From Apostichopus japonicus (lineage: Eukaryota; Echinodermata; Holothuroidea; Aspidochirotida; Stichopodidae), in contig NC_092576.1 in NCBI RefSeq assembly GCF_037975245.1, positions 38,395,111 through 38,459,110 on the forward strand: 64,000 nucleotides of DNA, written 5' to 3'. Each line of letters opens with the position of its first letter. The stretch's first letter is position 1. Positions 6,806-31,337 of this stretch are shown here, one piece after another. The notes beneath the pieces are model-generated. The model saw only the letters and a program-made list of their open reading frames with translations, did not search any database and was not told the DNA's origin. A program made the translations under genes and the position numbers.

Positions 6806-7225
6806 CATGTGAGTAATAAATTTCCCCCACCCACCCCCCCCCCCCCCAAAGAAAAAATATTAAGCGTGCCAATAAAAGCTCTGTATTTTTGGTAACTCAC
6901 TTTGTCGTCGAATATAATTTGTTGAAAATAAAAAGTTTTCCCCTTTGTTACATTAACATACCTTTTGTAGTCAGTAGTCTATAAAGCCTTCAAGCAGATA
7001 ACTTTACTTAGTTGCTTACCTGCTTTGCTTAACCAGAGTGTTTATGTAAGTTTGTGAAGTGAGGGCCAGTGGTATTCAATATGTGAATGTTGGCGAGTAG
7101 AGCAGGGGGGGGGGGGGGGTAAGAGAACAAACAACAGCCGGAATTTTATGGCTCCAAAACCTATCCAGTTGGAATTTCAGCCACTCCCCCCCCCCCCCCT
7201 AATGATCAGGCCTTAGCTGCGTCCC

Positions 7226-8128
7226 TGATTTCATGGAATCATCACTCCGTCAAACAAGGGTCTGTTTATATCGTTTATTTTCCGAAGTTGTAGATCTGTC
7301 TATATCATGTGTCATTGAGCGTAGAAAAACTCAAATTCAATATAGATATATAAATGTTTCACTTAATCATCACTCCGTTAAACAAGGGTCAGCGTCTGTT
7401 TATATCCTTTATTTTCCGAAGTTGTAGATCTGTGTATTGAATGCATTGAAAGTAATCACATCGTATTAACGTCTTTTTTGTTGTTGTAACACAGTAATTT
7501 CAATTGGAATATATAATCGTAAGTGTATGAGCGGATTCTGTGGACCGTCCACATAATCTTATACACATTTCATTGTATTATTTATTGATTATAAACCAAA
7601 ATTAGGGTTGAAAATTGATGAACTCTATTAATTCAAAAAAACTGTGTTCTAAGGAAGGACCCCGCACCAAATATCGGCAGATTCAGGAAGGAATCAACCC
7701 GTCAAATATAGTTCTGTTTTATATCCTTTAATTACTGATTACTAATTCGTAGATCTGTTTAAATCATGTATCATTGAGCATATAAAGATTAATTTTAAAA
7801 ACAGATAACTTTATCAAATATATATTTTTTGGCATGTCATACGGTTTACCTTTAGGTTAATATATTCTTAACAAAACTTTATTTAGGAACATTGGGGAGA
7901 AAAAATGAAAGCAAGCATCAACAATCCTCGTTACATGGGTTAGGATTATTATAGGAAACCCGAAAGAATAACCCTTATCCTTAACCCTTAATATTAGTAT
8001 GATAATACTGTTGACCGTTCACATAATAATTGTCTTAAAAGCAGCTTGTTAAGAAAGATCACAACCTAAATATTTTCTTTTGGTCTATAGAATGTATTTG
8101 GATAGTAGTATTAACGTTTTTTTTTTTA
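7226..8128 (+). repeat. Partial first higher-order unit
   Basis: The array begins with the segment ATCATCACTCCGTCAAACAAGGGTC. A second copy of that segment follows at about 7368, then a monomer landmark at 7496 and the roughly 640-bp spacer that precedes each anchor monomer. The unit is truncated on its left side and more diverged than internal units. Confidence 0.75.
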
Positions 8129-10613
8129 GTAACACACGTAATCTCAATTGGAATATATAATCGTAAGTATATGAGCGTATTATGTGGACCGTCCACATAA
8201 TCTGAGACACATGATATTGTATAACATATTGATTCTTAAGCAAAGCTCCTCTTGAATATATTCAGAAATGATCAGCTAATCTAATTAACACTGACAGCCT
8301 TCTGAACAAGGGCCAAACCCTCAAATCTCGAAATATTTCAGTGAATCATCACTCCGTCAAACAAGGGTCTGTTTATATCCTTTATTTTCTGAAGTTGTAG
8401 GTCTGTCTATATCATGTGTCATTGAGCATAGAAAAATTGGAATTAAAAATAGATAGCCATATCATATTAAATGAAAGTCGGCTTACCTACATTGTAATGA
8501 AACTTGATCTCAACTTTAATTGGGAACATTGGAAATGAACCACTCATGTAAACTGACCTCAATGACCACCGGTGCACGGGTTATGATTGGCATTGGTGCC
8601 CCCCCCCCCCGCACCCTTACCCCCGACTTAAAAAGAACAGTGAAAATAAAACTTACTATTACCCTTATCCTGTAAGATAATACTCATAACCATTCAAATA
8701 TTAATTGTTTAAAACGAAGCTGTTAAGACAATAGTGTGTATTAGGATAGTAGTGTAACGTGAATGGTTTTTATACTCATCCGTAGTAAGCTGTGCATTGA
8801 ACTACATAGCCAGCCATGTCATGAATATTTAAAGTCAAGTGGTATGTAATTTAGGAGGGTTAAATGCTTATTGATGTGTTTTATAGTCTAATTAAGAGAG
8901 TTATGGGTTAAGTAAATCGGTATTACCAGTGAGTTTAATGTCTACGACATATCTGCATATGTTGAGGGGGATAATGTTGTTGTTGTTCATGAAATAGTTA
9001 AAGAGATTTTACGCCACATGTTGTATTGTTTATTGCTTAGTATATGTACCAGAGTGTCACCATTTGCAGAGGTTTTGAAAATTAATCTACATTGTAAACT
9101 TGCATTCACATATACTAAATTCTTGTACGCATAGATTTTTTATTTTCTTGTAATTGTAATATGGCCCGGTCTCTTTTTACTACGATTAATTGATACACAA
9201 GCTAACCACGACATTTCCATAAAGGAACTTTTGACAGTATTCTCTGCTATGCTAATGGGCCCCCGGAATGCAACAGTAGTATTGACGTTTTTGTTTAATA
9301 ACCCACGTCATCTCAATTGAAATATATAATCGTAATTGTATAATCGGTTTATGTGGATCGTCCACATTATATTATACGTATGATGTTGTATTGTTTATTG
9401 ATTCTAAACCAAAACCGTATAATTGAAAATATTAAAAATTAATCAAGTACATTAATTCACAATAACGGTCTTCTGAATAAGGGCTACACACCCTCAAATC
9501 TCGACAGATTCAGTAAGGAATCAACCCGTCAAATATGGGTCTGTTTTATATCCTGTATTTACAGAACTCGTAGATCTGTTTAAATCATGTGTATTGAATG
9601 TATTTAATATATTCATAATAGAAGTATAAACGTCTCTTTTTCTGTAACACACGTAATCTCAATTGGAATATATAATCGTAAGTGTACGAGCGGATTATGT
9701 GGACCGTCCACATAATCTTATACACATTTCATTATTTTTTATTGACTATAAACAAAAATTAGGGTTTTAAATTTATCAACTATATTAATTCAAAATAACT
9801 GTGTTCTAAGGAAGGACCCCGCTCCAAATATCGACAGATTCAGTAAGGAATCAACCCGTCAAATATGGGTCTGTTTTATATCCTGTATTTACCGAACTCG
9901 TAGATCTGTTTAAATCATGTGTATTGAATGTATTTAATATATTCATATAGAAGTATTAACATTTTTTTTCCTGTAACACACGTAATCTCAATTGGAATAT
10001 ATAATCGTTAGTGTACGAGCGGATTATGTGGACCGTCCACACAATCTTATACACATTTCATTGTATTGTTTATTGATTATAAACCAAAATTAGGGTTGAA
10101 AATTCATGAACTCTATTAATTCAAAATAACTATGTTCTTAGGAAAGACCCCGCACCAAATATCGACAGATTCAGGAAGGAATCAACCCGTCAAATATGGG
10201 TCTGTTTTATTTCCTTTAATTACTGAACTCATAGATCTGTTGAAATCACGTACCATTGAGCATATAAAGATTTATATTAAAAACAGATAACTTTATCAAA
10301 TAAACATATATTTTTGCATGTCATAAGGTTTACCTTTAGGCTAATATAGTCTTAACAAAACTTTATTTGGGAACATTGGGAAGAAAAAAGTGTAAGCAAG
10401 CATCAACAATCCTCGTTACATGGGTTAGGATTATTATATGAAACCCGAAAGAATAACCCTAATCCTTAACCCTTAATATTAGTATGATAATACTGTTGAC
10501 CGTTCACATAATAATTGTCTTAAAAGCAGCTTGTTAAGAAAGATCACAACCTAAATATTTTCTTTTGGTCTATAGAATGTATTTGGATAGTAGTATTAAC
10601 GTTTTTTTTTTTA
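8129..10613 (+). repeat. Higher-order unit 1 (2485 bp)
   Basis: The anchor monomer at 8129 carries the diagnostic AAGTATATGAGCGTATTATG variant. It is followed by the 1515-bp diverged block, monomer landmarks at 9644 and 9973, and the 640-bp spacer. It has the TTTGCAGAGG variant near 9064. Confidence 0.85.
9682..9725. promoter_or_regulatory. Representative 25-bp dyad of the satellite monomer
   Basis: The arms GATTATGTGGAC (9693-9704) and its exact complement (9706-9717) surround a single C. Outer arms GTGTA (9682-9686) and TACAC (9721-9725) extend the symmetry. The same dyad, or a one-base variant (CACACAATC right arm), sits in each monomer. The older internal monomers carry GTGGATCGTCCAC. 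A symmetrical site of this length could bind a dimeric protein or extrude a cruciform. Which of these applies, if either, is not shown by sequence. Confidence 0.6.
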
Positions 10614-13600
10614 GTAACACACGTAATCTCAATTGGAATATATAATCGTAAGTATATGAGCGTATTATGTGGACCGTCCACATAATCTGAGACACATGAT
10701 ATTGTATAACATATTGATTCTTAAGCAAAGCTCCTCTTGAATATATTCAGAAATGATCAGCTAATCTAATTAACACTGACAGCCTTCTGAACAAGGGCCA
10801 AACCCTCAAATCTCGAAATATTTCAGTTAATCATCACTCCGTCAAACAAGGGTCTGTTTTAATCCTTTATTTTCCGAAGTTGTAGGTCTGTCTATATCAT
10901 GAGTCATTGAGCATAGAAAAATTGAAATTAAAAATAGATAGCCATATCATATTAAATGAAAGTCGGCTTACCTACATTGTAATGAAACTTGATCTCAACT
11001 TTAATTGGGAACATTGGAAATGAACCACTCCTGTAAACTGACCTCAATGACCACCGGTGCACGGGTTATGGATGGCATTGGTGCCCCCCCCCCCCCCGCA
11101 CCCTTACCCCCCCCCCCCGACTTAAAAAGAAACGTGAAAATAAAACTTACTATTACCCTTATCCTGTAAGATAATACTCATAACCATTCAAATATTAATT
11201 GTTTAAAACGAAGCTGTTAAGACAATAGTGTGTATTAGGATAGTAGTGTAACGTGAATGGTTTTTATACTCATCCGTAGTAATCTGTGCATTGAACTACA
11301 TAGCCAGCCATGTCATGAATATTTATAGTCAAGTGGTATGTAATTTAGGAGGGTTAAATGCTAATTGATGTGTTTTATAGTCTAATTAAGAGAGTTATGG
11401 GTTAAGTAAATCGGTATTACCAGTGAGTTTAATGTCTACGACATATCTGCATATGTTGAGGGGGATAATGTTGTTGTTGTTAATTAAATAGTTAAAAGAG
11501 ATTTTACGTCACATGTTGTATTGTTTTATTGCTTAGTATATGTACCAGAGTGTCACCACCTACAACAATTTTGAAAACTAATCTATATTGTAAACTTGCA
11601 TTCACATATACTAAATTCTTGTACGCAGAGATTTTTTATTTTCTTGTAATTGTAATATGGCCTGGTCTCTATTTACTACGATTAATTGATACACAAGCTA
11701 ACCACGACATTTCCATAAAGGAACTTTTGACAGTATTCTCTGCTGTGCTAATGGGACCCCGGAATGCAACAGTAGTATTGACGTTTTTGTTTAATAACCC
11801 ACGTCATCTCAATTGAAATATATAATCGTAATTGTATAATCGGTTTATGTGGATCGTCCACATTATATTATACGTATGATGTTGTATTGTTTATTGATTC
11901 TAAAACAAAACCGTATAATTGAAAATATTAAAAATTAATCAAGTACATTAATACACAATAACGGTCTTCTGAATAAGGGCTACACACCCTCAAATCTCGA
12001 CAGATTCAGTAAGGAATCAACCCGTCAAATATGGGTCTGTTTTATATCCTGTATTTACAGAACTCGTAGATCTGTTTAAATCATGTGTATTGAATGTATT
12101 TAATATATTCATAATAGGAGTATAAACGTCTTTTTTTCTGTAACACACGTAATCTCAATTGGAATATATAATCGTAAGTGTACGAGCGGATTATGTGGAC
12201 CGTCCACATAATCTTATACACATTTCATTATTTTTTATTGACTATAAACAAAAATTAGGGTTTTAAATTAATCAACTATATTAATTCAAATTAACTGTGT
12301 TCTAAGGAAGGACCCCGCGCCAAATATCGACAGATTCAGTAAGGAATCAACCCGTCAAATATGGGTCTGTTTTATATCCTGTATTTACCGAACTCGTAGA
12401 TCTGTTTAAATCATGTGTATTGAATGTATTTAATATATTCATATAGAAGTATTAACATGTTTTTTCCCCTGTAACACACGTAATCTCAATTGGAATATAT
12501 AATCGTTAGTGTACGAGCGGATTATGTGGACCGTCCACACAATCTTATACACATTTCATTGTATTGTTTATTGATTATAAACCAAAATTAGGGTTGAAAA
12601 TTTATCAACTCTATTAATTCAAAATAACTATGTTCTTAGGAAAGACCCCGCGCCAAATATAGACAGATTCAGGAAGGAATCAACCCGTCAAATATGGGTC
12701 TGTTTTATATCCTGTATTTACCGAACTCGTAGATCTGTTTAAATCATGTGTATTGAATGTATTTAATATATTCATATAGAAGTATTAACATTTGTTTTTT
12801 CTGTAACACACGTAATCTCAATTGGAATATATAATCGTAAGTGTACGAGCGGATTATGTGGACCGTCCACACAATCTTATACACATTTCATTGTATTGTT
12901 TATTGATTATAAACCAAAATTAGGGTTGAAAATTGATGAACTCTATTAATTCAAAATAACTATGTTCTTAGGAAAGACCCCGCGCCAAATATCGACAGAT
13001 TCAGGAAGGAATCAACCCGTCAAATATGGGTCTGTTTTATATCCTGTATTTACCGAACTCGTAGATCTGTTTAAATCATGTGTATTGAATGTATTTAATA
13101 TATTCATATAGAAGTATTAACATTTTTTTTTTCTGTAACACACGTAATCTCAATTGGAATATATAATCGTAAGTGTACGAGCGGATTATGTGGACCGTCC
13201 ACACAATCTTATACACATTTCATTGTATTGTTTATTGATTATAAACCAAAATTAGGGTTGAAAATTGATGAACTCTATTAATTCAAAATAACTATGTTCT
13301 TAGGAAAGACCCCGCACCAAATATCGACAGATTCAGGAAGGAATCAACCCGTCAAATATGGGTCTGTTTTATTTCCTTTAATTACTGAACTCATAGATCT
13401 GTTGAAATCACGTATCATTGAGCATATAAAGATTTATATTAAAAACAGATAACTTTATCAAATAAACATATATTTTTGCATGTCATACGGTTTACCTTTA
13501 GGCTAATATAGTCTTAACAAAACTTTATTTGGGAACATTGGAAAGAAAAAAGTGTAAGCAAGCATCAACAATCCTCGTTACATGGGTTAGGATTATTATA

Positions 13601-13776
13601 TGAAACCCGAAAGAATAACCCTAATCCTTAACCCTTAATATTAGTATGATAATACTGTTGACCGTTCACATAATAATTGTCTTAAAAGCAGCTTGTTAAG
13701 AAAGATCACAACCTAAATATTTTCTTTTGGTCTATAGAATGTATTTGGATAGTAGTATTAACGTTTTTTTTTTTTA
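10614..13776 (+). repeat. Higher-order unit 2 (3163 bp)
   Basis: The anchor is at 10614 and monomer landmarks are at 12140, 12471, 12803 and 13135. It carries long C-runs near 11085-11119 and the CACCTACAACAATTTTG variant near 11557, both shared with unit 5. Confidence 0.85.
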
Positions 13777-14768
13777 GTAACACACGTAATCTCAATTGGA
13801 ATATATAATCGTAAGTATATGAGCGTATTATGTGGACCGTCCACATAATCTGAGACACATGATATTGTATAACATATTGATTCTTAAGCAAAGCTCCTCT
13901 TGAATATATTCAGAAATGATCAGCTAATCTAATTAACACTGACAGCCTTCTGAACAAGGGCCAAACCCTCAAATCTCGAAATATTTCAGTTAATCATCAC
14001 TCCGTCAAACAAGGGTCTGTTTATATCCTTTATTTTCCGAAGTTGTAGGTCTGTCTATATCATGTGTCATTGAGCATAGAAAAATTGAAATTAAAAATAG
14101 ATAGCCATATCATATTAAATGAAAGTCGGCTTACCTACATTGTAATGAAACTTGATCTCAACTTTAATTGGGAACATTGGAAATGAACCACTCCTGTAAA
14201 CTGACCTCAATGACCACCGGTGCACGGGTTATGATTGGCATTGGTGCCCCCCCCCCCGTACCCTTACCCCCGACTTAAAAAGAACAGTGAAAATAAAACT
14301 TACTATTACCCTTATCCTGTAAGATAATACTCATAACCATTCAAATATTAATTGTTTAAAACGAAGCTGTTAAGACAATAGTGTGTATTAGGATAGTAGT
14401 GTAACGTGAATGGTTTTCATACTCATCCGTAGTAAGCTGTGCATTGAACTACATAGCCAGCCATGTCATGAATATTTATAGTCAAGTGGTATGTAATTTA
14501 GGAGGGTTAAATGCTTATTGATGTGTTTTATAATCTAATTAAGAGAGTTATGGGTTAAGTAAATCGGTATTACCAGTGAGTTTAATGTCTACGACATATC
14601 TGCATATGTTGAGGGGGATAATGTTGTTGTTGTTCATGAAATAGTTAAAGAGATTTTACGCCACATGTTGTATTGTTTTATTGCTTAGTATATGTACCAG
14701 AGTGTCACCACCTACAAAAATTTTGAAAACTAATCTATATTGTAAACTTGCATTCACATATACTAAAT

Positions 14769-14934
14769 ATAAAATATGTAGTATCTGTTCCCTTCGGGAA
14801 TGGTGATACACACCTGACGATGATCACACAGTCACAGTCCCGATGCAAGGGGACTGGGGCTGAGAGCGGATCAGTCGTTTGGTAGTTTGGTTTTCGTGCC
14901 CAGGTTCTTTCCTGGGTGACTTTTTCTTAAAAAG
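14769..14934 (+). pseudogene. 5'-deleted U2-like unit (first of tandem pair)
   Basis: This unit is nearly identical to the second unit from the GTAGTATCTGTTC motif onwards, including the C/G hairpin at CCCAGG..CCTGGG. It lacks about 28 bases that correspond to the conserved 5' stem-loop of U2. After a short ATAAAAT leader it enters directly at the branch-site recognition region. Missing its 5' domain, it cannot be a normal U2 RNA. Confidence 0.7.
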
Positions 14935-14949
14935 TATACTAAATATAAA

Positions 14950-15140
14950 ATCGCTTCTCGGCCTTTTGGCTAAGATCATGTGTAGTATCTGTTCCCTTCG
15001 GGAATGGTGATACACACCTGACGATGATCACACAGTCACAGTCCCGATGCAAGGGGACTGGGGCTGAGAGCGGATCAGTCGTTTGGTAGTTTGGTTTTCG
15101 TGCCCAGGTTCTTTCCTGGGTGACTTTTTCTTAAAAAGTA
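14950..15140 (+). ncRNA. U2 snRNA-like sequence with U2 5' domain and unfamiliar 3' body
   Basis: The first 45 bases match the canonical animal U2 snRNA 5' domain with one mismatch, including CTTCTCGGCCTTTTGGCT (stem-loop I) and the branch-site pairing motif GTAGTA. U2 pairs with the intron branch point in the spliceosome. After GTATCTGTTC the sequence departs from textbook U2. It has a TTCG-capped hairpin (CCCTTCGGG) closed by GTATC/GATAC, then an unfamiliar GC-richer body, a GGTTTTCG stretch that could stand for an Sm-like site, and a terminal hairpin CCCAGG-TTCTTT-CCTGGG followed by a T-run. It sits inside a satellite between target-site copies, so it is probably a retroposed or SINE-like copy rather than the working gene. 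It could instead be a divergent U2 variant. No upstream snRNA promoter is evident. Confidence 0.5.
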
Positions 15141-17309
15141 TATACTAAATTCTTGTATGCAGAGATTTTTTATTTTCTTGTAATTGTAATATGGCCTGGT
15201 CTCTATTTACTACGATTAATTGATACACAAGCTAACCACGACATTTCCATAAAGGAACTTTTGACAGTATTCTCTGCTGTGCTAATGGGACCCCGGAATG
15301 CAACAGTAGTATTGACGTTTTTGTTTAATAACCCACGTCATCTCAATTGAAATATATAATCGTAATTGTATAATCGGTTTATGTGGATCGTCCACATTAT
15401 ATTATACGTATGATGTTGTATTGTTTATTGATTCTAAAACAAAACCGTATAATTGAAAATATTAAAAATTAATCAAGTACATTAATACACAATAACGGTC
15501 TTCTGAATAAGGGCTACACACCCTCAAATCTCGACAGATTCAGTAAGGAATCAACCCGTCAAATATGGGTCTGTTTTATATCCTGTATTTACAGAACTCG
15601 TAGATCTGTTTAAATCATGTGTATTGAATGTATTTAATATATTCATAATAGGAGTATAAACGTCTTTTTTTCTGTAACACACGTAATCTCAATTGGAATA
15701 TATAATCGTAAGTGTACGAGCGGATTATGTGGACCGTCCACATAATCTTATACACATTTCATTATTTTTTATTGACTATAAACAAAAATTAGGGTTTTAA
15801 ATTAATCAACTATATTAATTCAAATTAACTGTGTTCTAAGGAAGGACCCCGCGCCAAATATCGACAGATTCAGTAAGGAATCAACCCGTCAAATATGGGT
15901 CTGTTTTATATCCTGTATTTACCGAACTCGTAGATCTGTTTAAATCATGTGTATTGAATGTATTTAATATATTCATATAGAAGTATTAACATGTTTTTTC
16001 CCCTGTAACACACGTAATCTCAATTGGAATATATAATCGTTAGTGTACGAGCGGATTATGTGGACCGTCCACACAATCTTATACACATTTCATTGTATTG
16101 TTTATTGATTATAAACCAAAATTAGGGTTGAAAATTGATGAACTCTATTAATTCAAAATAACTATGTTCTTAGGAAAGACCCCGCGCCAAATATAGACAG
16201 ATTCAGGAAGGAATCAACCCGTCAAATATGGGTCTGTTTTATATCCTGTATTTACCGAACTCGTAGATCTGTTTAAATCATGTGTATTGAATGTATTTAA
16301 TATATTCATATAGAAGTATTAACATTTTTTTTTTCTGTAACACACGTAATCTCAATTGGAATATATAATCGTAAGTGTACGAGCGGATTATGTGGACCGT
16401 CCACACAATCTTATACACATTTCATTGTATTGTTTATTGATTATAAACCAAAATTAGGGTTGAAAATTGATGAACTCTATTAATTCAAAATAACTATGTT
16501 CTTAGGAAAGACCCCGCGCCAAATATCGATAGATTCAGGAAGGAATCAACCCGTCAAATATGGGTCTGTTTTATATCCTGTATTTACCGAACTCGTAGAT
16601 CTGTTTAAATCATGTGTATTGAATGTATTTAATATATTCATATAGAAGTATTAACATTTTTTTTTCTGTAACACACGTAATCTCAATTGGAATATATAAT
16701 CGTAAGTGTACGAGCGGATTATGTGGACCGTCCACACAATCTTATACACATTTCATTGTATTGTTTATTGATTATAAACCAAAATTAGGGTTGAAAATTC
16801 ATGAACTCTATTAATTCAAAATAACTATGTTCTTAGGAAAGACCCCGCACCAAATATCGACAGATTCAGGAAGGAATCAACCCGTCAAATATGGGTCTGT
16901 TTTATTTCCTTTAATTACTGAACTCATAGATCTGTTGAAATCACGTATCATTGAGCATATAAAGATTTATATTAAAAACAGATAACTTTATCAAATAAAC
17001 ATATATTTTTGCATGTCATACGGTTTACCTTTAGGCTAATGTAGTCTTAACAAAACTTTATTTGGGAACATTGGAAAGAAAAAAGTGTAAGCAAGCATCA
17101 ACAATCCTCGTTACATGGGTTAGGATTATTATATGAAACCCGAAAGAATAACCCTAATCCTTAACCCTTAATATTAGTATGATAATACTGTTGACCGTTC
17201 ACATAATAATTGTCTTAAAAGCAGCTTGTTAAGAAAGATCACAACCTAAATATTTTCTTTTGGTCTATAGAATGTATTTGGATAGTAGTATTAACGTTTT
17301 TTTTTTTTA

Positions 17310-19797
17310 GTAACACACGTAATCTCAATTGGAATATATAATCGTAAGTATATGAGCGTATTATGTGGACCGTCCACATAATCTGAGACACATGATATTG
17401 TATAACATATTGATTCTTAAGCAAAGCTCCTCTTGAATATATTCAGAAATGATCAGCTAATCTAATTAACACTGACAGCCTTCTGAACAAGGGCCAAACC
17501 CTCAAATCTCGAAATATTTCAGTTAATCATCACTCCGTCAAACAAGGGTCTGTTTATATCCTTTATTTTCTGAAGTTGTAGGTCTATCTATATCATGTGT
17601 CATTGAGCATAGAAAAATTGAAATTAAAAATAGATAGCCATATCATATTAAATGAAAGTCGGCTTACCTACATTGTAATGAAACTTGATCTCAACTTTAA
17701 TTGGGAACATTGGAAATGAACCACTCCTGTAAACTGACCTCAATGACCACCGGTGCACGGGTTATGATTGGCATTGGTGCCCCACCCCCCCGCACCCTTA
17801 CCCCCGACTTAAAAAGAACAGTGAAAATAAAACTTACTATTACCCTTATCCTGTAAGATAATACTCATAACCATTCAAATATTAATTGTTTAAAACGAAG
17901 CTGTTAAGACAATAGTGTGTATTAGGATAGTAGTGTAACGTGAATGGTTTTCATACTCATCCGTAGTAAGCTGTGCATTGAACTACATAGCCAGCCATGT
18001 CATGAATATTTATAGTCAAGTGGTATGTAATTTAGGAGGGTTAAATGCTTATTGATGTGTTTTATAGTCTAATTAAGAGAGTTATGGGTTAAGTAAATCG
18101 GTATTACCAGTGAGTTTAATGTCTACGACATATCTGCATATGTTGAGGGGGATAATGTTGTTGTTGTTCATGAAATAGTTAAAGAGATTTTACGTCACAT
18201 GTTGTATTGTTTTATTGCTTAGTATATGTACCAGAGTGTCACCATTTGCAGAGGTTTTGAAAATTAATCTACATTGTAAACTTGCATTCACATATACTAA
18301 ATTCTTGTACGCATAGATTTTTTATTTTCTTGTAATTGTAATATGGCCCGGTCTCTTTTTACTACGATTAATTGATACACAAGCTAACCACGACATTTCC
18401 ATAAAGGAACTTTTGACAGTATTCTCTGCTATGCTAATGGGCCCCCGGAATGCAACAGTAGTATTGACGTTTTTGTTTAATAACCCACGTCATCTCAATT
18501 GAAATATATAATCGTAATTGTATAATCGGTTTATGTGGATCGTCCACATTATATTATACGTATGATGTTGTATTGTTTATTGATTCTAAACCAAAACCGT
18601 ATAATTGAAAATATTAAAAATTAATCAAGTACATTAATACACAATAACGGTCTTCTGAATAAGGGCTACACACCCTCAAATCTCGACAGATTCAGTAAGG
18701 AATCAACCCGTCAAATATGGGTCTGTTTTATATCATGTATTTACAGAACTCGAAGATCTGTTTAAATCATGTGTATTGAATGTATTTAATATATTCATAA
18801 TAGGAGTATAAACGTCTTTTTTTCTGTAACACACGTAATCTCAATTGGAATATATAATCGTAAGTGTACGAGCGGATTATGTGGACCGTCCACATAATCT
18901 TATACACATTTCATTATTTTTTATTGACTATAAACAAAAATTAGGGTTTTAAATTAATCAACTATATTAATTCAAAATAACTGTGTTCTAAGGAAGGACC
19001 CCGCGCCAAATATCGACAGATTCAGTAAAGAATCAACCCGTCAAATATGGGTCTGTTTCATACCCTGTATTTACCGAACTCGTAGATCCGTTTGAATCAT
19101 GTGTATTGAATGTATTTAATATATTCATATAGCAGTATTAACATTTTTTTTTTCCTGTAACACACGTAATCTCAATTGGAATATATAATCGTTAGTGTAC
19201 GAGCGGATTATGTGGACCGTCCACACAATCTTATACACATTTCATTGTATTGTTTATTGATTATAAACCAAAATTAGGGTTGAAAATTGATGAACTCTAT
19301 TAATTCAAAATAACTATGTTCTTAGGAAAGACCCCGCACCAAATATCGACAGATTCAGGAAGGAATCAACCCGTCAAATATGGGTCTGTTTTATTTCCTT
19401 TAATTACTGAACTCATAGATCTGTTGAAATCACGTACCATTGAGCATATAAAGATTTATATTAAAAACAGATAACTTTATCAAATAAACATATATTTTTG
19501 CATGTCATAAGGTTTACCTTTAGGCTAATATAGTCTTAACAAAACTTTATTTGGGAACATTGGGAAGAAAAAAGTGTAAGCAAGCATCAACAATCCTCGT
19601 TACATGGGTTAGGATTATTATATGAAACCCGAAAGAATAACCCTAATCCTTAACCCTTAATATTAGTATGATAATACTGTTGACCGTTCACATAATAATT
19701 GTCTTAAAAGCAGCTTGTTAAGAAAGATCACAACCTAAATATTTTCTTTTGGTCTATAAAATGTATTTGGATAGTAGTATTAACGTTTTTTTTTTTA
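17310..19797 (+). repeat. Higher-order unit 4 (2488 bp)
   Basis: The anchor is at 17310 and monomer landmarks are at 18826 and 19157. Length and variant bases (TTTGCAGAGG near 18245) match unit 1 closely, so the two probably share a recent common copy. Confidence 0.85.
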
Positions 19798-22624
19798 GTA
19801 ACACACGTAATCTCAATTGGAATATATAATCGTAAGTATATGAGCGTATTATGTGGACCGTCCACATAATCTGAGACACATGATATTGTATAACATATTG
19901 ATTCTTAAGCAAAGCTCCTCTTGAATATATTCAGAAATGATCAGCTAATCTAATTAACACTGACAGCCTTCTGAACAAGGGCCAAACCCTCAAATCTCGA
20001 AATATTTCAGTTAATCATCACTCCGTCAAACAAGGGTCTGTTTATATCCTTTATTTTCCGAAGTTGTAGGTCTGTCTATATCATGTGTCATTGAGCATAG
20101 AAAAATTGGAATTAAAAATAGATAGCCATATCATATTAAATGAAAGTCGGCTTACCTACATTGTAATGAAACTTGATCTCAACTTTAATTGGGAACATTG
20201 GAAATGAACCACTCCTGTAAACTGACCTCAATGACCACCGGTGCACGGGTTATGGATGGCATTGGTGCCCCCCCCCCCGCACCCTTACCCCCCCCCCCCG
20301 ACTTAAAAAGAAACGTGAAAATAAAACTTACTATTACCCTTATCCTGTAAGATAATACTCATAACCATTCAAATATTAATTGTTTAAAACGAAGCTGTTA
20401 AGACAATAGTGTGTATTAGGATAGTAGTGTAACGTGAATGGTTTTTATACTCATCCGTAGTAATCTGTGCATTGAACTACATAGCCAGCCATGTCATGAA
20501 TATTTATAGTCAAGTGGTATGTAATTTAGGAGGGTTAAATGCTAATTGATGTGTTTTATAGTCTAATTAAGAGAGTTATGGGTTAAGTAAATCGGTATTA
20601 CCAGTGAGTTTAATGTCTACGACATATCTGCATATGTTGAGGGGGATAATGTTGTTGTTGTTAATTAAATAGCTAAAAGAGATTTTACGTCACATGTTGT
20701 ATTGTTTTATTGCTTAGTATATGTACCAGAGTGTCACCACCTACAACAATTTTGAAAACTAATCTATATTGTAAACTTGCATTCACATATACTAAATTCT
20801 TGTACGCAGAGATTTTTTATTTTCTTGTAATTGTAATATGGCCTGGTCTCTATTTACTACGATTAATTGATACACAAGCTAACCACGACATTTCCATAAA
20901 GGAACTTTTGACAGTATTCTCTGCTGTGCTAATGGGACCCCGGAATGCAACAGTAGTATTGACGTTTTTGTTTAATAACCCACGTCATCTCAATTGAAAT
21001 ATATAATCGTAATTGTATAATCGGTTTATGTGGATCGTCCACATTATATTATACGTATGATGTTGTATTGTTTATTGATTCTAAAACAAAACCGTATAAT
21101 TGAAAATATTAAAAATTAATCAAGTACATTAATACACAATAACGGTCTTCTGAATAAGGGCTACACACCCTCAAATCTCGACAGATTCAGTAAGGAATCA
21201 ACCCGTCAAATATGGGTCTGTTTTATATCCTGTATTTACCGAACTCGTAGATCTGTTTAAATCATGTGTATTGAATGTATTTAATATATTCATAATAGGA
21301 GTATAAACGTCTTTTTTTCTGTAACACACGTAATCTCAATTGGAATATATAATCGTAAGTGTACGAGCGGATTATGTGGACCGTCCACATAATCTTATAC
21401 ACATTTCATTGTATTTTTTATTGACTATAATCAAAAATTAGGGTTTTAAATTAATCAACTATATTAATTCAAAATAACTGTGTTCTAAGGAAGGACCCCG
21501 CGCCAAATATCGACAGATTCAGTAAGGAATCAACCCGTCAAATATGGGTCTGTTTTATATCCTGTATTTACCGAACTCGTAGATCTGTTTAAATCATGTG
21601 TATTGAATGTATTTAATATATTCATATAGAAGTATTAACATGTTTTTTCCCTGTAACACACGTAATCTCAATTGGAATATATAATCGTTAGTGTACGAGT
21701 GGATTATGTGGACCGTCCACACAATCTTATACACATTTCATTGTATTGTTTATTGATTATAAACCAAAATTAGGGTTGAAAATTGATGAACTCTATTAAT
21801 TCAAAATAACTATGTTCTTAGGAAAGACCCCGCGCCAAATATAGACAGATTCAGGAAGGAATCAACCCGTCAAATATGGGTCTGTTTTATATCCTGTATT
21901 TACCGAACTCGTAGATCTGTTTAAATCATGTGTATTGAATGTATTTAATATATTCATATAGAAGTATTAACATTTTTTTTTTCTGTAACACACGTAATCT
22001 CAATTGGAATATATAATCGTAAGTGTACGAGCGGATTATGTGGACCGTCCACACAATCTTATACACATTTCATTGTATTGTTTATTGATTATAAACCAAA
22101 ATTAGGGTTGAAAATTTATCAACTCTATTAATTCAAAATAACTATGTTCTTAGGAAAGACCCCGCACCAAATATCGACAGATTCAGGAAGGAATCAACCC
22201 GTCAAATATGGGTCTGTTTTATTTCCTTTAATTACTGAACTCATAGATCTGTTGAAATCACGTATCATTGAGCATATAAAGATTTATATTAAAAACAGAT
22301 AACTTTATCAAATAAACATATATTTTTGCATGTCATACGGTTTACCTTTAGGCTAATATAGTCTAAACAAAACTTTATTTGGGAACATTGGAAAGAAAAA
22401 AGTGTAAGCAAGCATCAACAATCCTCGTTACATGGGTTAGGATTATTATAGGAAACCCGAAAGAATAACCCTAATCCTTAACCCTTAATATTAGTATGAT
22501 AATACTGTTGACCGTTCACATAATAATTGTCTTAAAAGCAGCTTGTTAAGAAAGATCACAACCTAAATATTTTCTTTTGGTCTATAGAATGTATTTGGAT
22601 AGTAGTATTAACGTTTTTTTTTTT
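19798..22624 (+). repeat. Higher-order unit 5 (2827 bp)
   Basis: The anchor is at 19798 and monomer landmarks are at 21321, 21653 and 21985. It shares the long C-runs, the AATCTGTGC variant and TTAATTAAATAG with unit 2. Confidence 0.85.
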
Positions 22625-25600
22625 GTAACACACGTAATCTCAATTGGAATATATAATCGTAAGTATATGAGCGTATTATGTGGACCGTCCACATAATCTG
22701 AGACACATGATATTGTATAACATATTGATTCTTAAGCAAAGCTCCTCTTGAATATATTCAGAAATGATCAGCTAATCTAATTAACACTGACAGCCTTCTG
22801 AACAAGGGCCAAACCCTCAAATCTCGAAATATTTCAGTTAATCATCACTCCGTCAAACAAGGGTCTGTTTATATCCTTTATTTTCCGAAGTTGTAGGTCT
22901 GTCTATATCATGTGTCATTGAGCATAGAAAAATTGAAATTAAAAATAGATAGCCATATCATATTAAATGAAAGTCGGCTTACCTACATTGTAATGAAACT
23001 TGATCTCAACTTTAATTTGGAACATTGGAAATGAACCACTCCTGTAAACTGACCTCAATGACCACCATTGCACGGGTTATGATTGGCATTGGTGCCCCCC
23101 CCCCCGTACCCTTACCCCCGACTTAAAAAGAACAGTGAAAATAAAACTTACTATTACCCTTATCCTGTAAGATAATACTCATAACCATTCAAATATTAAT
23201 TGTTTAAAACGAAGCTGTTAAGACAATAGTGTGTATTAGGATAGTAGTGTAACGTGAATGGTTTTCATACTCATCCGTAGTAAGCTGTGCATTGAACTAC
23301 ATAGCCAGCCATGTCATGAATATTTATAGTCAAGTGGTATGTAATTTAGGAGGGTTAAATGCTAATTGATGTGTTTTATAATCTAATTAAGAGAGTTATG
23401 GGTTAAGTAAATCGGTATTACCAGTGAGTTTAATGTCTACGACATATCTGCATATGTTGAGGGGGATAATGTTGTTGTTGTTCATGAAATAGTTAAAGAG
23501 ATTTTACGTCACATGTTGTATTGTTTTATTGCTTAGTATATGTACCAGAGTGTCACCATTTGCAGAGGTTTTGAAAATTAATCTACATTGTAAACTTGCA
23601 TTCACATATACTAAATTCTTGTACGCATAGATTTTTTATTTTCTTGTAATTGTAATATGGCCCGGTCTCTTTTTACTACGATTAATTGATACACAAGCTA
23701 ACCACGACATTTCCATAAAGGAACTTTTGACAGTATTCTCTGCTATGCTAATGGGCCCCCGGAATGCAACAGTAGTATTGACGTTTTTGTTTAATAACCC
23801 ACGTCATCTCAATTGAAATATATAATCGTAATTGTATAATCGGTTTATGTGGATCGTCCACATTATATTATACGTATGATGTTGTATTGTTTATTGATTC
23901 TAAACCAAAACCGTATAATTGAAAATATTAAAAATTAATCAAGTACATTAATTCACAATAACGGTCTTCTGAATAAGGGCTACACACCCTCAAATCTCGA
24001 CAGATTCAGTAAGGAATCAACCCGTCAAATATGGGTCTGTTTTATATCCTGTATTTACAGAACTCGAAGATCTGTTCAAATCATGTGTATTGAATGTATT
24101 TAATATATTCATAATAGGAGTATAAACGTCTTTTTTTCTGTAACACACGTAATCTCAATTGGAATATATAATCGTAAGTGTATGAGCGGATTATGTGGAC
24201 CGTCCACATAATCTTATACACATTTCATTATTTTTTATTGACTATAAACAAAAATTAGGGTTTTAAATTAATCAACTATATTAATTCAAAATAACTGTGT
24301 TCTAAGGAAGGACGCCGCGCCAAATATCGACAGATTCAGTAAGGAATCAACCCGTCAAATATGGGTCTGTTTTATATCCTGTATTTACCGAACTCGTAGA
24401 TCTGTTTGAATCATGTGTATTGAATGTATTTAATATATTCATATAGAAGTATTAACATTTTTTTCCCTGTAACACACGTAATCTCAATTGGAATATATAA
24501 TCGTTAGTGTACGAGCGGATTATGTGGACCGTCCACACAATCTTATACACATTTCATTGTATTGTTTATTGATTATAAACCAAAATTAGGGTTGAAAATT
24601 GATGAACTCTATTAATTCAAAATAACTATGTTCTTAGGAAAGACCCCGCGCCAAATATCGATAGATTCAGTAAGGAATCAACCCGTCAAATATGGGTCTG
24701 TTTTATATCCTGTACTTACCGAACTCGTAGATCTGTTTGAATCATGTGTATTGAATGTATTTAATATATTCATATAGAAGTATTAACATTTTTTTTTCTG
24801 TAACACACGTAATCTCAATTGGAATATATAATCGTAAGTGTACGAGCGGATTATGTGGACCGTCCACACAATCTTATACACATTTCATTGTATTGTTTAT
24901 TGATTATAAACCAAAATTAGGGTTGAAAATTTATCAACTCTATTAATTCAAAATAACTATGTTCTTAGGAAAGACCCCGCGCCAAATATCGACAGATTCA
25001 GGAAGGAATCAACCCGTCAAATATGGGTCTGTTTTATATCCTGTATTTACCGAACTCGTAGATCTGTTTGAATCATGTGTATTGAATGTATTTAATATAT
25101 TCATATAGAAGTATTAACATTTTTTTTTTCTGTAACACACGTAATCTCAATTGGAATATATAATCGTAAGTGTACGAGCGGATTATGTGGACCGTCCACA
25201 CAATCTTATACACATTTCATTGTATTGTTTATTGATTATAAACCAAAATTAGGGTTGAAAATTGATGAACTCTATTAATTCAAAATAACTATGTTCTTAG
25301 GAAAGACCCCGCGCCAAATATCGATAGATTCAGTAAGGAATCAACCCGTCAAATATGGGTCTGTTTTATATCCTGTACTTACCGAACTCGTAGATCTGTT
25401 TGAATCATGTGTATTGAATGTATTTAATATATTCATATAGAAGTATTAACATTTTTTTTTCTGTAACACACGTAATCTCAATTGGAATATATAATCGTAA
25501 GTGTACGAGCGGATTATGTGGACCGTCCACATAATCTTATACACATTTCATTGTATTCTTCATTGGTTATAAACCAAAATTAGGGTTGAAAATTTATCAA

Positions 25601-26102
25601 CTCTATTAATTCAAAATAACTATGTTCTTAGGAAAGACCCCGCACCAAATATCGACAGATTCAGGAAGGAATCAACCCGTCAAATATGGGTCTGTTTTAT
25701 TTCCTTTAATTACTGAACTCATAGATCTGTTGAAATCACGTATCATTGAGCATATAAAGATTTATATTAAAAACAGATAACTTTATCAAATAAACATATA
25801 TTTTTGCATGTCATACGGTTTACCTTTAGGCTAATATAGTCTAAACAAAACTTTATTTGGGAACATTGGAAAGAAAAAAGTGTAAGCAAGCATCAACAAT
25901 CCTCGTTACATGGGTTAGGATTATTATAGGAAACCCGAAAGAATAACCCTAATCCTTAACCCTTAATATTAGTATGATAATACTGTTGACCGTTCACATA
26001 ATAATTGTCTTAAAAGCAGCTTGTTAAGAAAGATCACAACCTAAATATTTTCTTTTGGTCTATAGAATGTATTTGGATAGTAGTATTAACGTTTTTTTTT
26101 TT
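22625..26102 (+). repeat. Higher-order unit 6 (3478 bp)
   Basis: The anchor is at 22625 and monomer landmarks are at 24140, 24469, 24800, 25132 and 25463. The fifth monomer carries the rare CTTCATTGGTTAT variant. Spacing is matched almost base for base by the first part of unit 7. Confidence 0.85.
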
Positions 26103-29100
26103 GTAACACACGTAATCTCAATTGGAATATATAATCGTAAGTATATGAGCGTATTATGTGGACCGTCCACATAATCTGAGACACATGATATTGTATAACA
26201 TATTGATTCTTAAGCAAAGCTCCTCTTGAATATATTCAGAAATGATCAGCTAATCTAATTAACACTGACAGCCTTCTGAACAAGGGCCAAACCCTCAAAT
26301 CTCGAAATATTTCAGTTAATCATCACTCCGTCAAACAAGGGTCTGTTTATATCCTTTATTTTCCGAAGTTGTAGGTCTGTCTATATCATGTGTCATTGAG
26401 CATAGAAAAGTTGAAATTAAAAATAGATAGCCATATCATATTAAATGAAAGTCGGCTTACCTACATTGTAATGAAACTTGATCTCAACTTTAATTTGGAA
26501 CATTGGAAATGAACCACTCCTGTAAACTGACCTCAATGACCACCGGTGCACGGGTTATGATTGGCATTGGTGCCCCCCCCCCCGTACCCTTACCCCCGAC
26601 TTAAAAAGAACAGTGAAAATAAAACTTACTATTACCCTTATCCTGTAAGATAATACTCATAACCATTCAAATATTAATTGTTTAAAACGAAGCTGTTAAG
26701 ACAATAGTGTGTATTAGGATAGTAGTGTAACGTGAATGGTTTTCATACTCATCCGTAGTAAGCTGTGCATTGAACTACATAGCCAGCCATGTCATGAATA
26801 TTTATAGTCAAGTGGTATGTAATTTAGGAGGGTTAAATGCTAATTGATGTGTTTTATAATCTAATTAAGAGAGTTATGGGTTAAGTAAATCGGTATTACC
26901 AGTGAGTTTAATGTCTACGACATATCTGCATATGTTGAGGGGGATAATGTTGTTGTTGTTCATGAAATAGTTAAAGAGATTTTACGTCACATGTTGTATT
27001 GTTTTATTGCTTAGTATATGTACCAGAGTGTCACCATTTGCAGAGGTTTTGAAAATTAATCTACATTGTAAACTTGCATTCACATATACTAAATTCTTGT
27101 ACGCATAGATTTTTTATTTTCTTGTAATTGTAATATGGCCCGGTCTCTTTTTACTACGATTAATTGATACACAAGCTAACCACGACATTTCCATAAAGGA
27201 ACTTTTGACAGTATTCTCTGCTATGCTAATGGGCCCCCGGAATGCAACAGTAGTATTGACGTTTTTGTTTAATAACCCACGTCATCTCAATTGAAATATA
27301 TAATCGTAATTGTATAATCGGTTTATGTGGATCGTCCACATTATATTATACGTATGATGTTGTATTGTTTATTGATTCTAAACCAAAACCGTATAATTGA
27401 AAATATTAAAAATTAATCAAGTACATTAATTCACAATAACGGTCTTCTGAATAAGGGCTACACACCCTCAAATCTCGACAGATTCAGTAAGGAATCAACC
27501 CGTCAAATATGGGTCTGTTTTATATCCTGTATTTACAGAACTCGAAGATCTGTTCAAATCATGTGTATTGAATGTATTTAATATATTCATAATAGGAGTA
27601 TAAACGTCTTTTTTTCTGTAACACACGTAATCTCAATTGGAATATATAATCGTAAGTGTATGAGCGGATTATGTGGACCGTCCACATAATCTTATACACA
27701 TTTCATTATTTTTTATTGACTATAAACAAAAATTAGGGTTTTAAATTAATCAACTATATTAATTCAAAATAACTGTGTTCTAAGGAAGGACGCCGCGCCA
27801 AATATCGACAGATTCAGTAAGGAATCAACCCGTCAAATATGGGTCTGTTTTATATCCTGTATTTACCGAACTCGTAGATCTGTTTGAATCATGTGTATTG
27901 AATGTATTTAATATATTCATATAGAAGTATTAACATTTTTTTCCCTGTAACACACGTAATCTCAATTGGAATATATAATCGTTAGTGTACGAGCGGATTA
28001 TGTGGACCGTCCACACAATCTTATACACATTTCATTGTATTGTTTATTGATTATAAACCAAAATTAGGGTTGAAAATTGATGAACTCTATTAATTCAAAA
28101 TAACTATGTTCTTAGGAAAGACCCCGCGCCAAATATCGATAGATTCAGTAAGGAATCAACCCGTCAAATATGGGTCTGTTTTATATCCTGTACTTACCGA
28201 ACTCGTAGATCTGTTTGAATCATGTGTATTGAATGTATTTAATATATTCATATAGAAGTATTAACATTTTTTTTTCTGTAACACACGTAATCTCAATTGG
28301 AATATATAATCGTAAGTGTACGAGCGGATTATGTGGACCGTCCACACAATCTTATACACATTTCATTGTATTGTTTATTGATTATAAACCAAAATTAGGG
28401 TTGAAAATTTATCAACTCTATTAATTCAAAATAACTATGTTCTTAGGAAAGACCCCGCGCCAAATATCGACAGATTCAGGAAGGAATCAACCCGTCAAAT
28501 ATGGGTCTGTTTTATATCCTGTATTTACCGAACTCGTAGATCTGTTTAAATCATGTGTATTGAATGTATTTAATATATTCATATAGAAGTATTAACATTT
28601 TTTTTTTCTGTAACACACGTAATCTCAATTGGAATATATAATCGTAAGTGTACGAGCGGATTATGTGGACCGTCCACACAATCTTATACACATTTCATTG
28701 TATTGTTTATTGATTATAAACCAAAATTAGGGTTGAAAATTGATGAACTCTATTAATTCAAAATAACTATGTTCTTAGGAAAGACCCCGCGCCAAATATC
28801 GATAGATTCAGTAAGGAATCAACCCGTCAAATATGGGTCTGTTTTATATCCTGTACTTACCGAACTCGTAGATCTGTTTGAATCATGTGTATTGAATGTA
28901 TTTAATATATTCATATAGAAGTATTAACATTTTTTTTTCTGTAACACACGTAATCTCAATTGGAATATATAATCGTAAGTGTACGAGCGGATTATGTGGA
29001 CCGTCCACATAATCTTATACACATTTCATTGTATTCTTCATTGGTTATAAACCAAAATTAGGGTTGAAAATTTATCAACTCTATTAATTCAAAATAACCG

Positions 29101-30595
29101 TTCTTAGGAAAGACCCCGCACCAAATATCGACAGATTCAGTAAAGAATCAAACCGTCAAATATGGGTCTGTTTTATATCCTGTATTTACCGAACTCTTAG
29201 ATCTGTTTAAATCATGTGTATTGAATGTATGGAATATATTCATACAGTAGTATTAACATCTTTTTTTTCTGTAACACACGTAATCTCAATTGGAATATAT
29301 AATCGTAAGTGTATGAGCGGATTATGTGGACCGTCCACACAATCTTATACACATTTCATTGTATTGTTTATTGATTATAAACCAAAATTAGGGTTGAAAA
29401 TTGATGAACTCTATTAATTCAAAATAACTATGTTCTTAGGAAAGACCCCGCGCCAAATATCGATAGATTCAGTAAGGAATCAACCCGTCAAATATGGGTC
29501 TGTTTTATATCCTGTACTTACCGAACTCGTAGATCTGTTTGAATCATGTGTATTGAATGTATTTAATATATTCATATAGAAGTATTAACATTTTTTTTTC
29601 TGTAACACACGTAATCTCAATTGGAATATATAATCGTAAGTGTACGAGCGGATTATGTGGACCGTCCACACAATCTTATACACATTTCATTGTATTGTTT
29701 ATTGATTATAAACCAAAATTAGGGTTGAAAATTTATCAACTCTATTAATTCAAAATAACTATGTTCTTAGGAAAGACCCCGCGCCAAATATCGATAGATT
29801 CAGGAAGGAATCAACCCGTCAAATATGGGTCTGTTTTATATCCTGTATTTACCGAACTCGTAGATCTGTTGAAATCATATGTATTGAATGTATTTAATAT
29901 ATTCATATAGAAGTAGTAACATTTTTTTTTCTGTAACACACGTAATCTCAATTGGAATATATAATCGTAAGTGTACGAGCGGATTATGTGGACCGTCCAC
30001 ATAATCTTATACACATTTCATTGTATTCTTCATTGGTTATAAACCAAAATTAGGGTTGAAAATTTATCAACTCTATTAGTTCAAAATAACCGTTCTTAGG
30101 AAAGACCCCGCACCAAATATCGACAGATTCAGTAAAGAATCAACCCGTCAAATATGGGTCTGTTTTATATCCTGTATTTACCGAACTCTTAGATCTGTTT
30201 AAATCATGTGTATTGAATGTATTGAATATATTCATACAGTAGTATTAACATCTTTTTTTTCTGTAACACACGTAATCTCAATTGGAATATATAATCGAAA
30301 GTGTATGAGCGGATTATGTGGACCGTCCACATAATCTTATACACATTTCATTGTATTGTTTATTGATTATAAACCAAAATTAGGGTTACAAATTTATCAA
30401 CTACATTATTTCAAAATAACTGTGTTCAAAGGAAGGACCCCGCACCAAATATTGACAGATTCAGTAAGGAATCAACCCGCCAAATATGGGTCTGTTTTAT
30501 ATCCTGTATTTACCGAACTCGTAGATCTGTTTAAAGCATTTGTATTGAATGTATTGAATATATTCATATAGAAGTATTAACGTCTTTTTTTCCCT
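26103..30595 (+). repeat. Higher-order unit 7 (expanded, about 4.5 kb)
   Basis: The anchor is at 26103 and monomer landmarks are at 27618, 27947, 28278, 28610, 28941, 29271, 29602, 29933 and 30263. A final landmark at 30596 runs into the array end. The first about 3.1 kb duplicates unit 6 with very few differences. The last monomers form a trimer of about 992 bp: the CATACAGTAG variant recurs at 29271 and 30263, and CTTCATTGGTTAT recurs at 28941 and 29933. Confidence 0.85.
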
Positions 30596-31039
30596 GTAAC
30601 ACACGTAATCTCAATTGGAATATATAATCGTAAGTGTATGAGCGGATTATGTGGACCGTCCACATAATCTTATACACATGATGTGGTATAACATATTGAC
30701 TCTAGAGCAAAGCTCCTCTTGAATTTATTCAGAAATGATCAGCTAATCTAATTCACACTGACCATAACCATGCTAACCACATATTTCGATAAAACGAAGA
30801 TACTTCATTTTAACTTTGGTAATTGTTTTTTGTGTCATACATATACACTATTATGGCAATAAGTGAGTACATTATAAAGGGTCAAAAGGCTTATACCAAT
30901 ATCATTAACATTTCCCTTACATTGGGTAGATTGCATGGGTATTGTCAGTAGTTTATGTCTGTATTTGGTGTGTGGCGATTAGATATGCAATTCCACGGAT
31001 TCGCCACTTGTTTAGACTTTTGGTCTGGATTTTCTTTTA

Positions 31040-31190
31040 GTATTAAAATGTACGCATATTGTGCACCTTGTATATACAATCGTTTTTACATTGCCTGCTA
31101 TGTATAATGTATATAAAGTTAGTATACAGGGGGATTATGGGGACTGTCCACATAATAATGTCCACACTATCATGTATACCGACTTTTCTC
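31040..31190 (+). repeat. Eroded satellite monomer beyond the right array edge
   Basis: The interval holds a weakened copy of the dyad region: GGGATTATGGGGACTGTCCAC followed by ATAATAATGTCC. It is preceded by an AATGTATATAAAGTTAGTATAC segment resembling AATATATAATCGTAAGTGTAC. Orientation agrees with the array. Confidence 0.5.
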
Positions 31191-31336
31191 TCAATAAATA
31201 AAATTGCAATTCTGAAGGTATAGATAGCTCCACTCACCATAACAGCAGAAACCACTTAATTTTTACGGGCCTAGCATGTGTACATCTAGTAGTCCCCGTA
31301 ACCCTGTCATATGCCAACGTCCACATAAACCAGGTA

Positions 31337-31337
31337 A

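Follow-up and report, generated by a model that had tools for sequence, protein, structure and literature searches.

The tandem array of roughly 331-bp monomers in the window (the whole 64,000-nt stretch of DNA that was analysed, to which all positions refer) is, on balance, best read as lying within a giant mobile element that carries at least three tandem arrays in all, whose right end is fixed against (TA)n, in which no long terminal inverted repeat was found, and whose dyads would bind a mobility-related protein. At 17 sites the copies break off at the same right terminus, beyond which their flanks are unrelated; they diverge little from one another and have left-hand DNA in common. A free-standing satellite is not supported as such by the comparisons between loci, because the DNA on both sides of the array recurs together with it elsewhere.

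Features of the putative element within the window (".", no strand assigned; C2 and C17 are contigs)
Feature	Position	Strand	Evidence or remark
Left, mostly non-repetitive stretch, running on leftward out of the window	1..7225	+	Sequence matches at C2, C17
Isolated exact dyad core	4516..4528	+	
Diverged monomer fragments without dyad	5864..6085	+	75-82% matches to unit
331-bp higher-order array	7226..30664	+	Units from 8010, 10495, 13657, 17190, 19679, 22507, 25985
Insertion in one of seven units	14768..15145 (right edge approximate)	+	Two tandem sequence copies between TATACTAAA repeats
Non-repetitive right end	30665..31337	+	15 full-length genome matches; edges of 20 loci read, 17 termini
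Dyad in right end	31139..31151	+	Additional half-site then at 31160
Half-site GTCCACATAA	31319..31328	+	Ends 9 bases before last shared base
(TA)n microsatellite at right junction	31338..31425	.	

A common right terminus at 17 sites

A genome-wide pattern search for the right terminus (window position ~31337) gave 17 copies with 0-1 mismatch in 22 bases, seven on contig C16, three on C17, two each on C9 and C15, and one each on C2, C8 and C12. At up to 3 mismatches, seven further matches lay elsewhere, at the level of the reversed control (26). All 17 termini stop at the identical point. A TA-rich tract, 8-236 bp long when measured by a simple rule, follows each of them, and the flanks farther out are unrelated, their single mutual match being a dispersed repeat. 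The last clearly shared base is uncertain by a few bases because the subsequent TATATG is also common to the copies. Among the 17 loci, 15 have right ends no more than 2.2% apart, and the spread was therefore recent.

The TA-rich tract at 17/17 right junctions read points to insertion at TA microsatellites, although, as seen from the right side, the tract could be the element's own; the claim of TA targeting depends on (TA)n being the target and falls if (TA)n is part of the element. Under the mechanism that we favour, new copies would enter pre-existing TA repeats via an enzyme that is either provided in trans or encoded farther left in the element; the TGTGGAC half-sites and inverted pairs would bind that enzyme, or else a protein with which the element is replicated or maintained; and arrays would lengthen or shorten as whole monomers and units are exchanged unequally. 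TGTGGAC occurs three times in the 672-bp right end (0/20,000 shuffles) versus three times in 32.6 kb of outside DNA, and the dyad of the right end is conserved in an 82%-identical relative (locus L075).

Such junctions could also result from segmental duplication without a dedicated enzyme, where a (TA)n tract that has broken invades another one and copies the adjoining block (by break-induced replication or reintegration of circular DNA), each copy sharing the (TA)n edge of its donor. This would fit the TA-rich tracts at all 17 right junctions read, the inverted termini and transposase domain that were not found, and the copies that lie close together, as a direct pair on C9 and an inverted pair on C15; a copy on C7 ends within a monomer, at (AT)n, and recombination at TA repeats would account for such an end too. 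One identical end point at 17 sites on seven contigs, 15 of them within 2.2%, and the clustering of half-sites in the right end speak against it, leaving segmental duplication a possible but doubtful source of the copies.

No inverted second copy of the 22-base terminus was found genome-wide at up to 3 mismatches, a search that a shorter or more diverged repeat would escape. Lack of inverted termini at that threshold is compatible with a non-autonomous Helitron or Helentron (HINE-like) with grossly enlarged central arrays, as are the satellite-like internal arrays and the presence, at other places in the genome, of Helitron open frames that look complete (2,064-2,489 codons). Against this, the last 146 bases of the right end hold no significant terminal hairpin (z-score -0.06), and the element ends in GTAA, whereas Helitrons end in CTRR. 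The monomers described in PMC7492417 are also shorter and fewer (140-180 bp, ~5 per array, maximum 29.3), and we consider a Helitron origin unlikely.

Extent of the putative element and organisation of its arrays

The left-hand DNA is shared between copies: window positions 1-4167 are 98% identical to C2 and 5588-7230 are 90% identical there; 2-4845 match C17 in pieces at 91-98% identity, and 4846-7230 at 97%. Leftward past window position 1 the element continues via a 245-bp array and then a third array. The sequence AGATTGTGTGGAC is common to the third array and the 331-bp array's half-site, and TGTGGAC is present in the third array as well; the motif was absent across 17.5 kb of the 245-bp array. 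The third array also has an open frame of 470 codons (L055:3816-5228), which was rejected as a gene, being a run of 210-bp repeats with six Pfam matches, all below curated cut-offs. Eight copies span at least 39-54 kb. In the C9 pair, arrays and right ends alike are 202,162 bp apart, with identical right ends and different right flanks; of three paired probes, that at 56 kb from the terminus was identical, and those at 76 and 106 kb were unrelated. This duplicated pair suggests an element length of 56-76 kb. Neither a left end, a target-site duplication nor an empty site of the element was seen among the copies compared.

The sequence-only reading had described monomers at 331-bp spacing, grouped in higher-order units, each with a dyad. 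Array, spacing and dyad are borne out: positions 7226-30765 hold 38 exact dyads GTGGACCGTCCAC, standard monomers lie 329-333 bp apart, and the seven units differ by whole monomers of ~331 bp. The spacing is nevertheless not uniform, because every unit also holds diverged monomer types and a spacer, which measures ~1.16 kb except in one unit, where it is 1.55 kb. In order, the units contain 3, 5, 5, 3, 4, 6 and 11 exact dyads (the last unit being cut at 30765). The longest stop-free stretch in the one spacer examined was 72 codons. In the unit that carries the insertion, the second tandem copy begins with a U2-snRNA-like head (Rfam RF00004 at 14950-15033, 53.3 bits); the other six units have an empty site at that place.

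In the window we counted 54 boxes of the four spellings sought: 39 GTGGACCGTCCAC (one of which, at 4516, lies outside the array), 7 GTGGATCGTCCAC, 7 GTTGACCGTTCAC and a single GGGGACTGTCCAC, at 31139. Allowing up to two mismatches, both strands gave 101 dyad matches versus a shuffle mean of 0.32. A lone dyad on C7 at 21.99 Mb was counted as chance, as it falls within an apparent SRCR exon (judged by eye).

Conservation of the dyad

We took as the fairest test of conservation the location of monomers by one arm and the scoring of 13-bp windows on the opposite arm and the core. For monomers located by the left arm (n=220), the 13-bp core was 2.4% diverged versus a right-arm window mean of 16.3%, and 0/137 windows were as low; for those located by the right arm (n=171), 6/141 left-arm windows were as low as the core or lower. 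The dyad core is thus kept better than any right-arm stretch of the monomer, and a box in the left arm is kept equally well or better, so that the earlier claim of the dyad as the best-kept part holds for one arm and not for the other. Nor did the dyad emerge as a lone peak, as the sequence-only reading had anticipated, after removal of duplicates above 97, 93 and 90% identity (n=58, 19, 10): 16, 27 and 38 of 141 left-arm windows were then as low as the core or lower. Other rankings are less even-handed. In one that was anchored on the left arm, 26 of 307 windows outranked the 25-bp dyad window, those at the top lying immediately left of the dyad, but this ranking was biased to the arm that served as its anchor and contained misplaced rows; another put the dyad low because row 8010 was captured by an adjacent box; and a dyad-anchored comparison that included the 4516 copy is partly circular.

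That isolated copy had been cited as a drifted monomer (4485-4580) in which the dyad survives. All 13/13 core bases are indeed kept and bins farther out (0.30-0.70) are close to the random control (0.35-0.53), but the three surrounding 20-bp bins are kept at 85% as well.

A dyad that is selectively kept, and perhaps bound, is supported because the core is among the best-kept parts and the half-site is enriched in the non-repetitive right end. Alternatively, the dyad may be unbound and persist via array homogenisation or DNA structure, which would suit the equal or better conservation of the left-arm box and the predominance of recent duplicates (220 windows reduce to 24 at 93% identity). The core, however, persists in old monomer types and, outside the array, in the right end of the 82%-identical relative, and half-sites cluster in the non-repetitive end; we think this account quite improbable.

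Of the bound-site pattern first proposed, selective retention is supported, and the CENP-B and centromeric setting is not. Primate alpha satellite keeps the CENP-B box in a higher-order satellite, and the likeness lies in a short box so kept; the sequence here is different and fully dyad-symmetric, copies are dispersed with fixed ends, and boxes occur outside the array too. A genuine satellite whose CENP-B-like box is bound, and which happened to be duplicated along with its surroundings, would explain the higher-order units and conserved dyad, but is very unlikely in view of the fixed ends, the presence of several clusters on a single contig (C16, with seven right ends), and the boxes at 4516 and 31139. 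Centromere-type placement is as a rule one region per chromosome; dispersed clusters are seen here, one or other of which may still be centromeric. The centromeric reading, and with it the analogy to a free satellite, is not supported because the copies are dispersed and have a fixed end, the array appearing instead as the interior of an element whose right terminus occurs at 17 sites.

Mobility genes, related systems and implications

The known spans yielded no protein gene of the element. Domains of three candidate families were sought there: the MULE transposase PF10551 (38 genome matches), Helitron PF14214 (50) and the KDZ transposase PF18758 (41) each gave 0 matches in known element spans, which end short of the left part. 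A MULE enzyme could be supplied in trans or by the left part, and a non-autonomous element would have no Helitron domain.

Among described systems, the Cg_HINE non-autonomous Helentrons of the Pacific oyster (PMC7492417) likewise carry satellite-like arrays in dispersed elements with fixed flanks, sometimes two per element. They differ in having 140-180-bp monomers, ~5 per array, a palindrome at the terminus and, in the left flank, a microsatellite. In the present element the 331-bp higher-order units extend across 23 kb, arrays number at least three, copies measure at least 39 kb, (TA)n lies at the right junction, and no terminal hairpin is significant. TA microsatellites are the target of MuTAnT, Micron and TAFT elements, and TA repeats flank their insertions (PMC4486113), as at the right junction read here; MuTAnTs, however, are plant Mutator-like elements, and the known span here showed neither a MULE domain nor a second, inverted terminus. 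Tribolium madens satellites have macro-dyad symmetries and short inverted repeats discussed as structural signals (PMC13081366), and the short inverted repeats are a likeness; they fill megabase-sized, probably centromeric regions, in contrast to an array within a dispersed element. Literature searches by topic, rather than by sequence, yielded no description that we recognised as this repeat.

The sequence-only reading had held that a match to the interior of a known transposon would count against it; the array does appear to be the interior of a mobile element, one assigned to no known family. Counting against the mobile-element reading are the left end, target-site duplication, empty site and protein gene that did not turn up, the 245-bp array without TGTGGAC, the left-arm box kept as well or better, and the C7 end inside a monomer. 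More tentatively, the copies may represent an undescribed class of giant (40-75 kb) elements without long inverted ends, with satellite arrays as their body, targeting of TA microsatellites, and tens of TGTGGAC dyads per copy that dock a mobility or replication protein; the satellite would then be machinery and not cargo.

The mobile-element reading would show, in a concrete and recent case, how higher-order satellite DNA gets to new chromosomes, as whole arrays inside a mobile element with a fixed end, and would give a testable, non-centromeric reason why a satellite should conserve a dyad. Should the element be autonomous, an animal element of this size that uses TA repeats would be unusual.

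Composition and surroundings of the 331-bp array

The window lies at C16:38395111-38459110; the genome searched comprised 671.6 Mb in 35 contigs. The higher-order array of 331-bp monomers that the sequence-only reading placed at 7226-30765 of the window is genuine; it contains seven higher-order units of 2485-3533 bp, the last running 4.78 kb up to the chosen cut at 30765. The parts of each unit are the box GTTGACCGTTCAC, an exact dyad 173-175 bp further on, a spacer of ~1.16 kb and a monomer with GTGGATCGTCCAC, along with a variable number of standard monomers; spacers of different units were 97.3-99.7% identical (gaps excluded). One of the seven units owes its greater length to an insertion whose head resembles U2 snRNA (Rfam RF00004, 53.3 bits). 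The insertion consists of two tandem copies flanked by repeats of TATACTAAA and resembles an snRNA-headed SINE; truncated relatives occupy the same site or one near it at two other loci.

Genome-wide there were 607 exact dyads, 386 of them forward and 221 reverse; the backward control gave 4 in each orientation. Among the first 100 dyad matches listed, together with monomer and spacer searches, array clusters were found on contigs C2, C7, C8, C9, C15, C16 and C17, and the clusters that were read held the same unit parts. A free-standing satellite, as first proposed, was not borne out; the array flanks recur together with the array elsewhere (Table), and at C7 4.08 Mb the left-flank piece was partly inverted. 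The C17 match ends at window position 2, adjoining a stretch of ~8.8 kb bounded by a direct repeat (374 bp identical; at least this length), which by eye reads as an LTR retrotransposon that entered the element very recently. At C2 18.076 Mb (locus L039, from ~760) a run of N is followed by a tandem repeat replacing the array, tRNA-like by eye, in which ARAGORN found no tRNA and Rfam gave no match. A lone exact dyad at C7 21.986 Mb (locus L043, 1519-1531), within what appears by eye to be an SRCR-domain exon, is taken as chance.

Table. Coordinates of matches and features in and around the element (L-numbers, loci read outside the window)
Feature	Position	Locus or remark	Identity
Flank match	window 4846-7230	C17 1.96 Mb	97%
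Flank match	window 5588-7230	C2 27.4 Mb	90%
Flank match	window 6649-7230	C2 18.06 Mb	90%
Flank match	window 1-4167	C2	98%
Flank match	window 2-4845	C17, in pieces	91-98%
U2-snRNA-like insertion	window 14768-15145	1 of 7 units	
Truncated relatives of insertion	L033 2570-2711; L042 2607-2789		
Stretch with direct repeat	L052 1 to L049 1828 (C17:1949001-1957828)	~8.8 kb	
245-bp array	C16:38376111-38395110 (L051, L054)	left of window	
Third array, in frame over 470 codons	L055 3816-5228 and L082	C2	
TATATAAAG and AATAAA	window 31110-31220	around right-end dyad	
GC-rich minisatellites	window 41277-42192 and 58714-59513	12/24/48-bp and 21/38/61-bp periods; right of element	

Right terminus and left extent of the proposed element

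The right end (query, window 30680-31335) gave 43 matches among 40 scored of 129 candidates, 15 of them full length; 20 of the 43 were read and their edges inspected. A genome-wide search with the 22-base terminus returned 24 matches, 17 with 0-1 mismatch, every one a right end, and 7 with 3 mismatches; the reversed control gave 26. At all 17 right ends the shared bases gave way to a TA-rich tract, measured by a simple rule at 8-236 bp, with unrelated DNA beyond it; one pair of flanks beyond the termini has a common 271-bp stretch (82% identity), probably a dispersed repeat. Right ends of 15 loci diverged by 0-2.2%, and that at C16 28.50 by 5.3-6.1%; the 30% tabulated for C12 is an artefact, because homology there is confined to the last 310 bp. 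Partial matches of 70-86% lie in local groups (C12 2.41-2.50, 4.49 and 13.55-13.65 Mb; C3 8.50-8.63 Mb) and look like older relatives. Three of those on C12 are spaced 43-46 kb, near the element size.

Left of the window lies a second array, of 245-bp monomers, interrupted by an AT-rich insertion; C2 (locus L053) carries the same array. The 245-bp array is also higher-order, and its palindromic AT-rich insertion was found near window 1543-2022 too. Further left, C2 carries a third array, built of ~1-kb units with a subrepeat of 210 bp; C8 and C9 (23.96 Mb) have it too (2 of 27 candidates scored). On C2 the 210-bp subrepeat stays in frame across 470 codons, with splice-like pyrimidine-AG borders by eye, a possible coding stretch. 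Among 40 scored of 824 candidates, 10 loci carried the 841-bp stretch joining the second and third arrays at 98-100% identity, and C17 17.99 Mb gave a further, partial match; at 8 of these 11 loci a right terminus lay 39-54 kb away. At C2 18.03, one of the remaining three, the array ends at a run of N; C16 14.46 and C9 23.97 carry the stretch with no right terminus in the genome-wide 22-base list. The other nine termini had no 841-bp match to their left, a result of little weight with 40 of 824 candidates scored.

Throughout the array, two copies on C9 stayed 202,162 bp apart; they had identical right ends and different right flanks. Paired probes 56 kb left of the terminus were 100% identical over 300 bp, and those at 76 and 106 kb (2 of 3 pairs) were unrelated; this would bracket, rather than show, a left edge between the 56-kb and 76-kb probes, or the pair may represent a duplication whose edge coincides by chance. 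Two C15 copies lie in opposite orientation (5.14-5.18 Mb, +; 5.31-5.35 Mb, -). Their right ends face each other across 131.5 kb and have the same sequence, with different flanks.

Affinities of the proposed element

No inverted copy of the 22-base terminus was found genome-wide at up to 3 mismatches, and the right end had no significant terminal hairpin. None of the matches to MULE (0/38), Helitron (0/50) or KDZ (0/41) fell inside the known element spans, which reach left to the third array. Most of the 50 Helitron_like_N matches were concentrated on C17 at ~15.7-24.3 Mb, a contig that may contain a TE-rich or non-recombining region. The MuTAnT, Micron and TAFT elements of plants are described as targeting TA repeats (PMC4486113), and oyster Helentron-type elements as containing satellite-like arrays (PMC7492417). 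On the tests made, the sea cucumber element appears to unite both features at larger size and to fit neither family. The main open alternative is that the array block spread without an enzyme, via fragile TA repeats; the C7 copy, which finishes within a monomer at (AT)n, fits such a spread.

Conservation of the dyad and distribution of its half-sites

Divergence was measured against the standard monomer, and the counts include a small number of misplaced rows that lack a complete monomer. Locating monomers by the left arm alone gave 220 windows, drawn from the 64-kb window and from the loci read. In these the dyad's 13-bp core was 2.4% diverged; right-arm windows of 13 bp averaged 16.3% and none was as low; after removal of duplicates of >97, 93 and 90% identity, 0, 1 and 6 of 137 were (n=75, 24, 14). 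With right-arm anchoring the core diverged by 3.1% and left-arm windows by 11.8% on average; of 141 such windows, 6, 16, 27 and 38 were no more diverged than the core (n=171, 58, 19, 10; all monomers, then the same removals). The single peak first proposed thus belongs to a longer conserved block, which extends leftward and has the dyad at its end. Old monomer types kept 13/13 (4516, 8184), 12/13 (9353) and 11/13 (8010, 31139) core bases, counts that are partly circular, being anchored on the dyad.

Counting both strands, the 672-bp right end contains three copies of the half-site TGTGGAC. The 32.6 kb to the right of the element also has three, never two within one 672-bp window, and none of 20,000 first-order Markov shuffles of the right-end sequence reached three. 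One right-end copy, as GTCCACATAA, finishes 9 bases short of the last shared base; the right-end dyad and its adjacent half-site are retained in an 82%-identical relative. About 20 bp upstream of this dyad is TATATAAAG, with AATAAA downstream, partly kept in that relative; by eye, these could mark a promoter or transcript end. TGTGGAC was absent from the 245-bp array (17.5 kb searched), which counts against a bound site. The third array contains AGATTGTGTGGAC, the same 13 bases as a half-site in many standard monomers, which supports a bound site without deciding it, because by a rough estimate the chance of such a common 13-mer is about 1 in 100, and more in AT-rich DNA. A putative protein recognising both the element end and the many internal sites would be consistent with an element-specific recombinase or replication factor.
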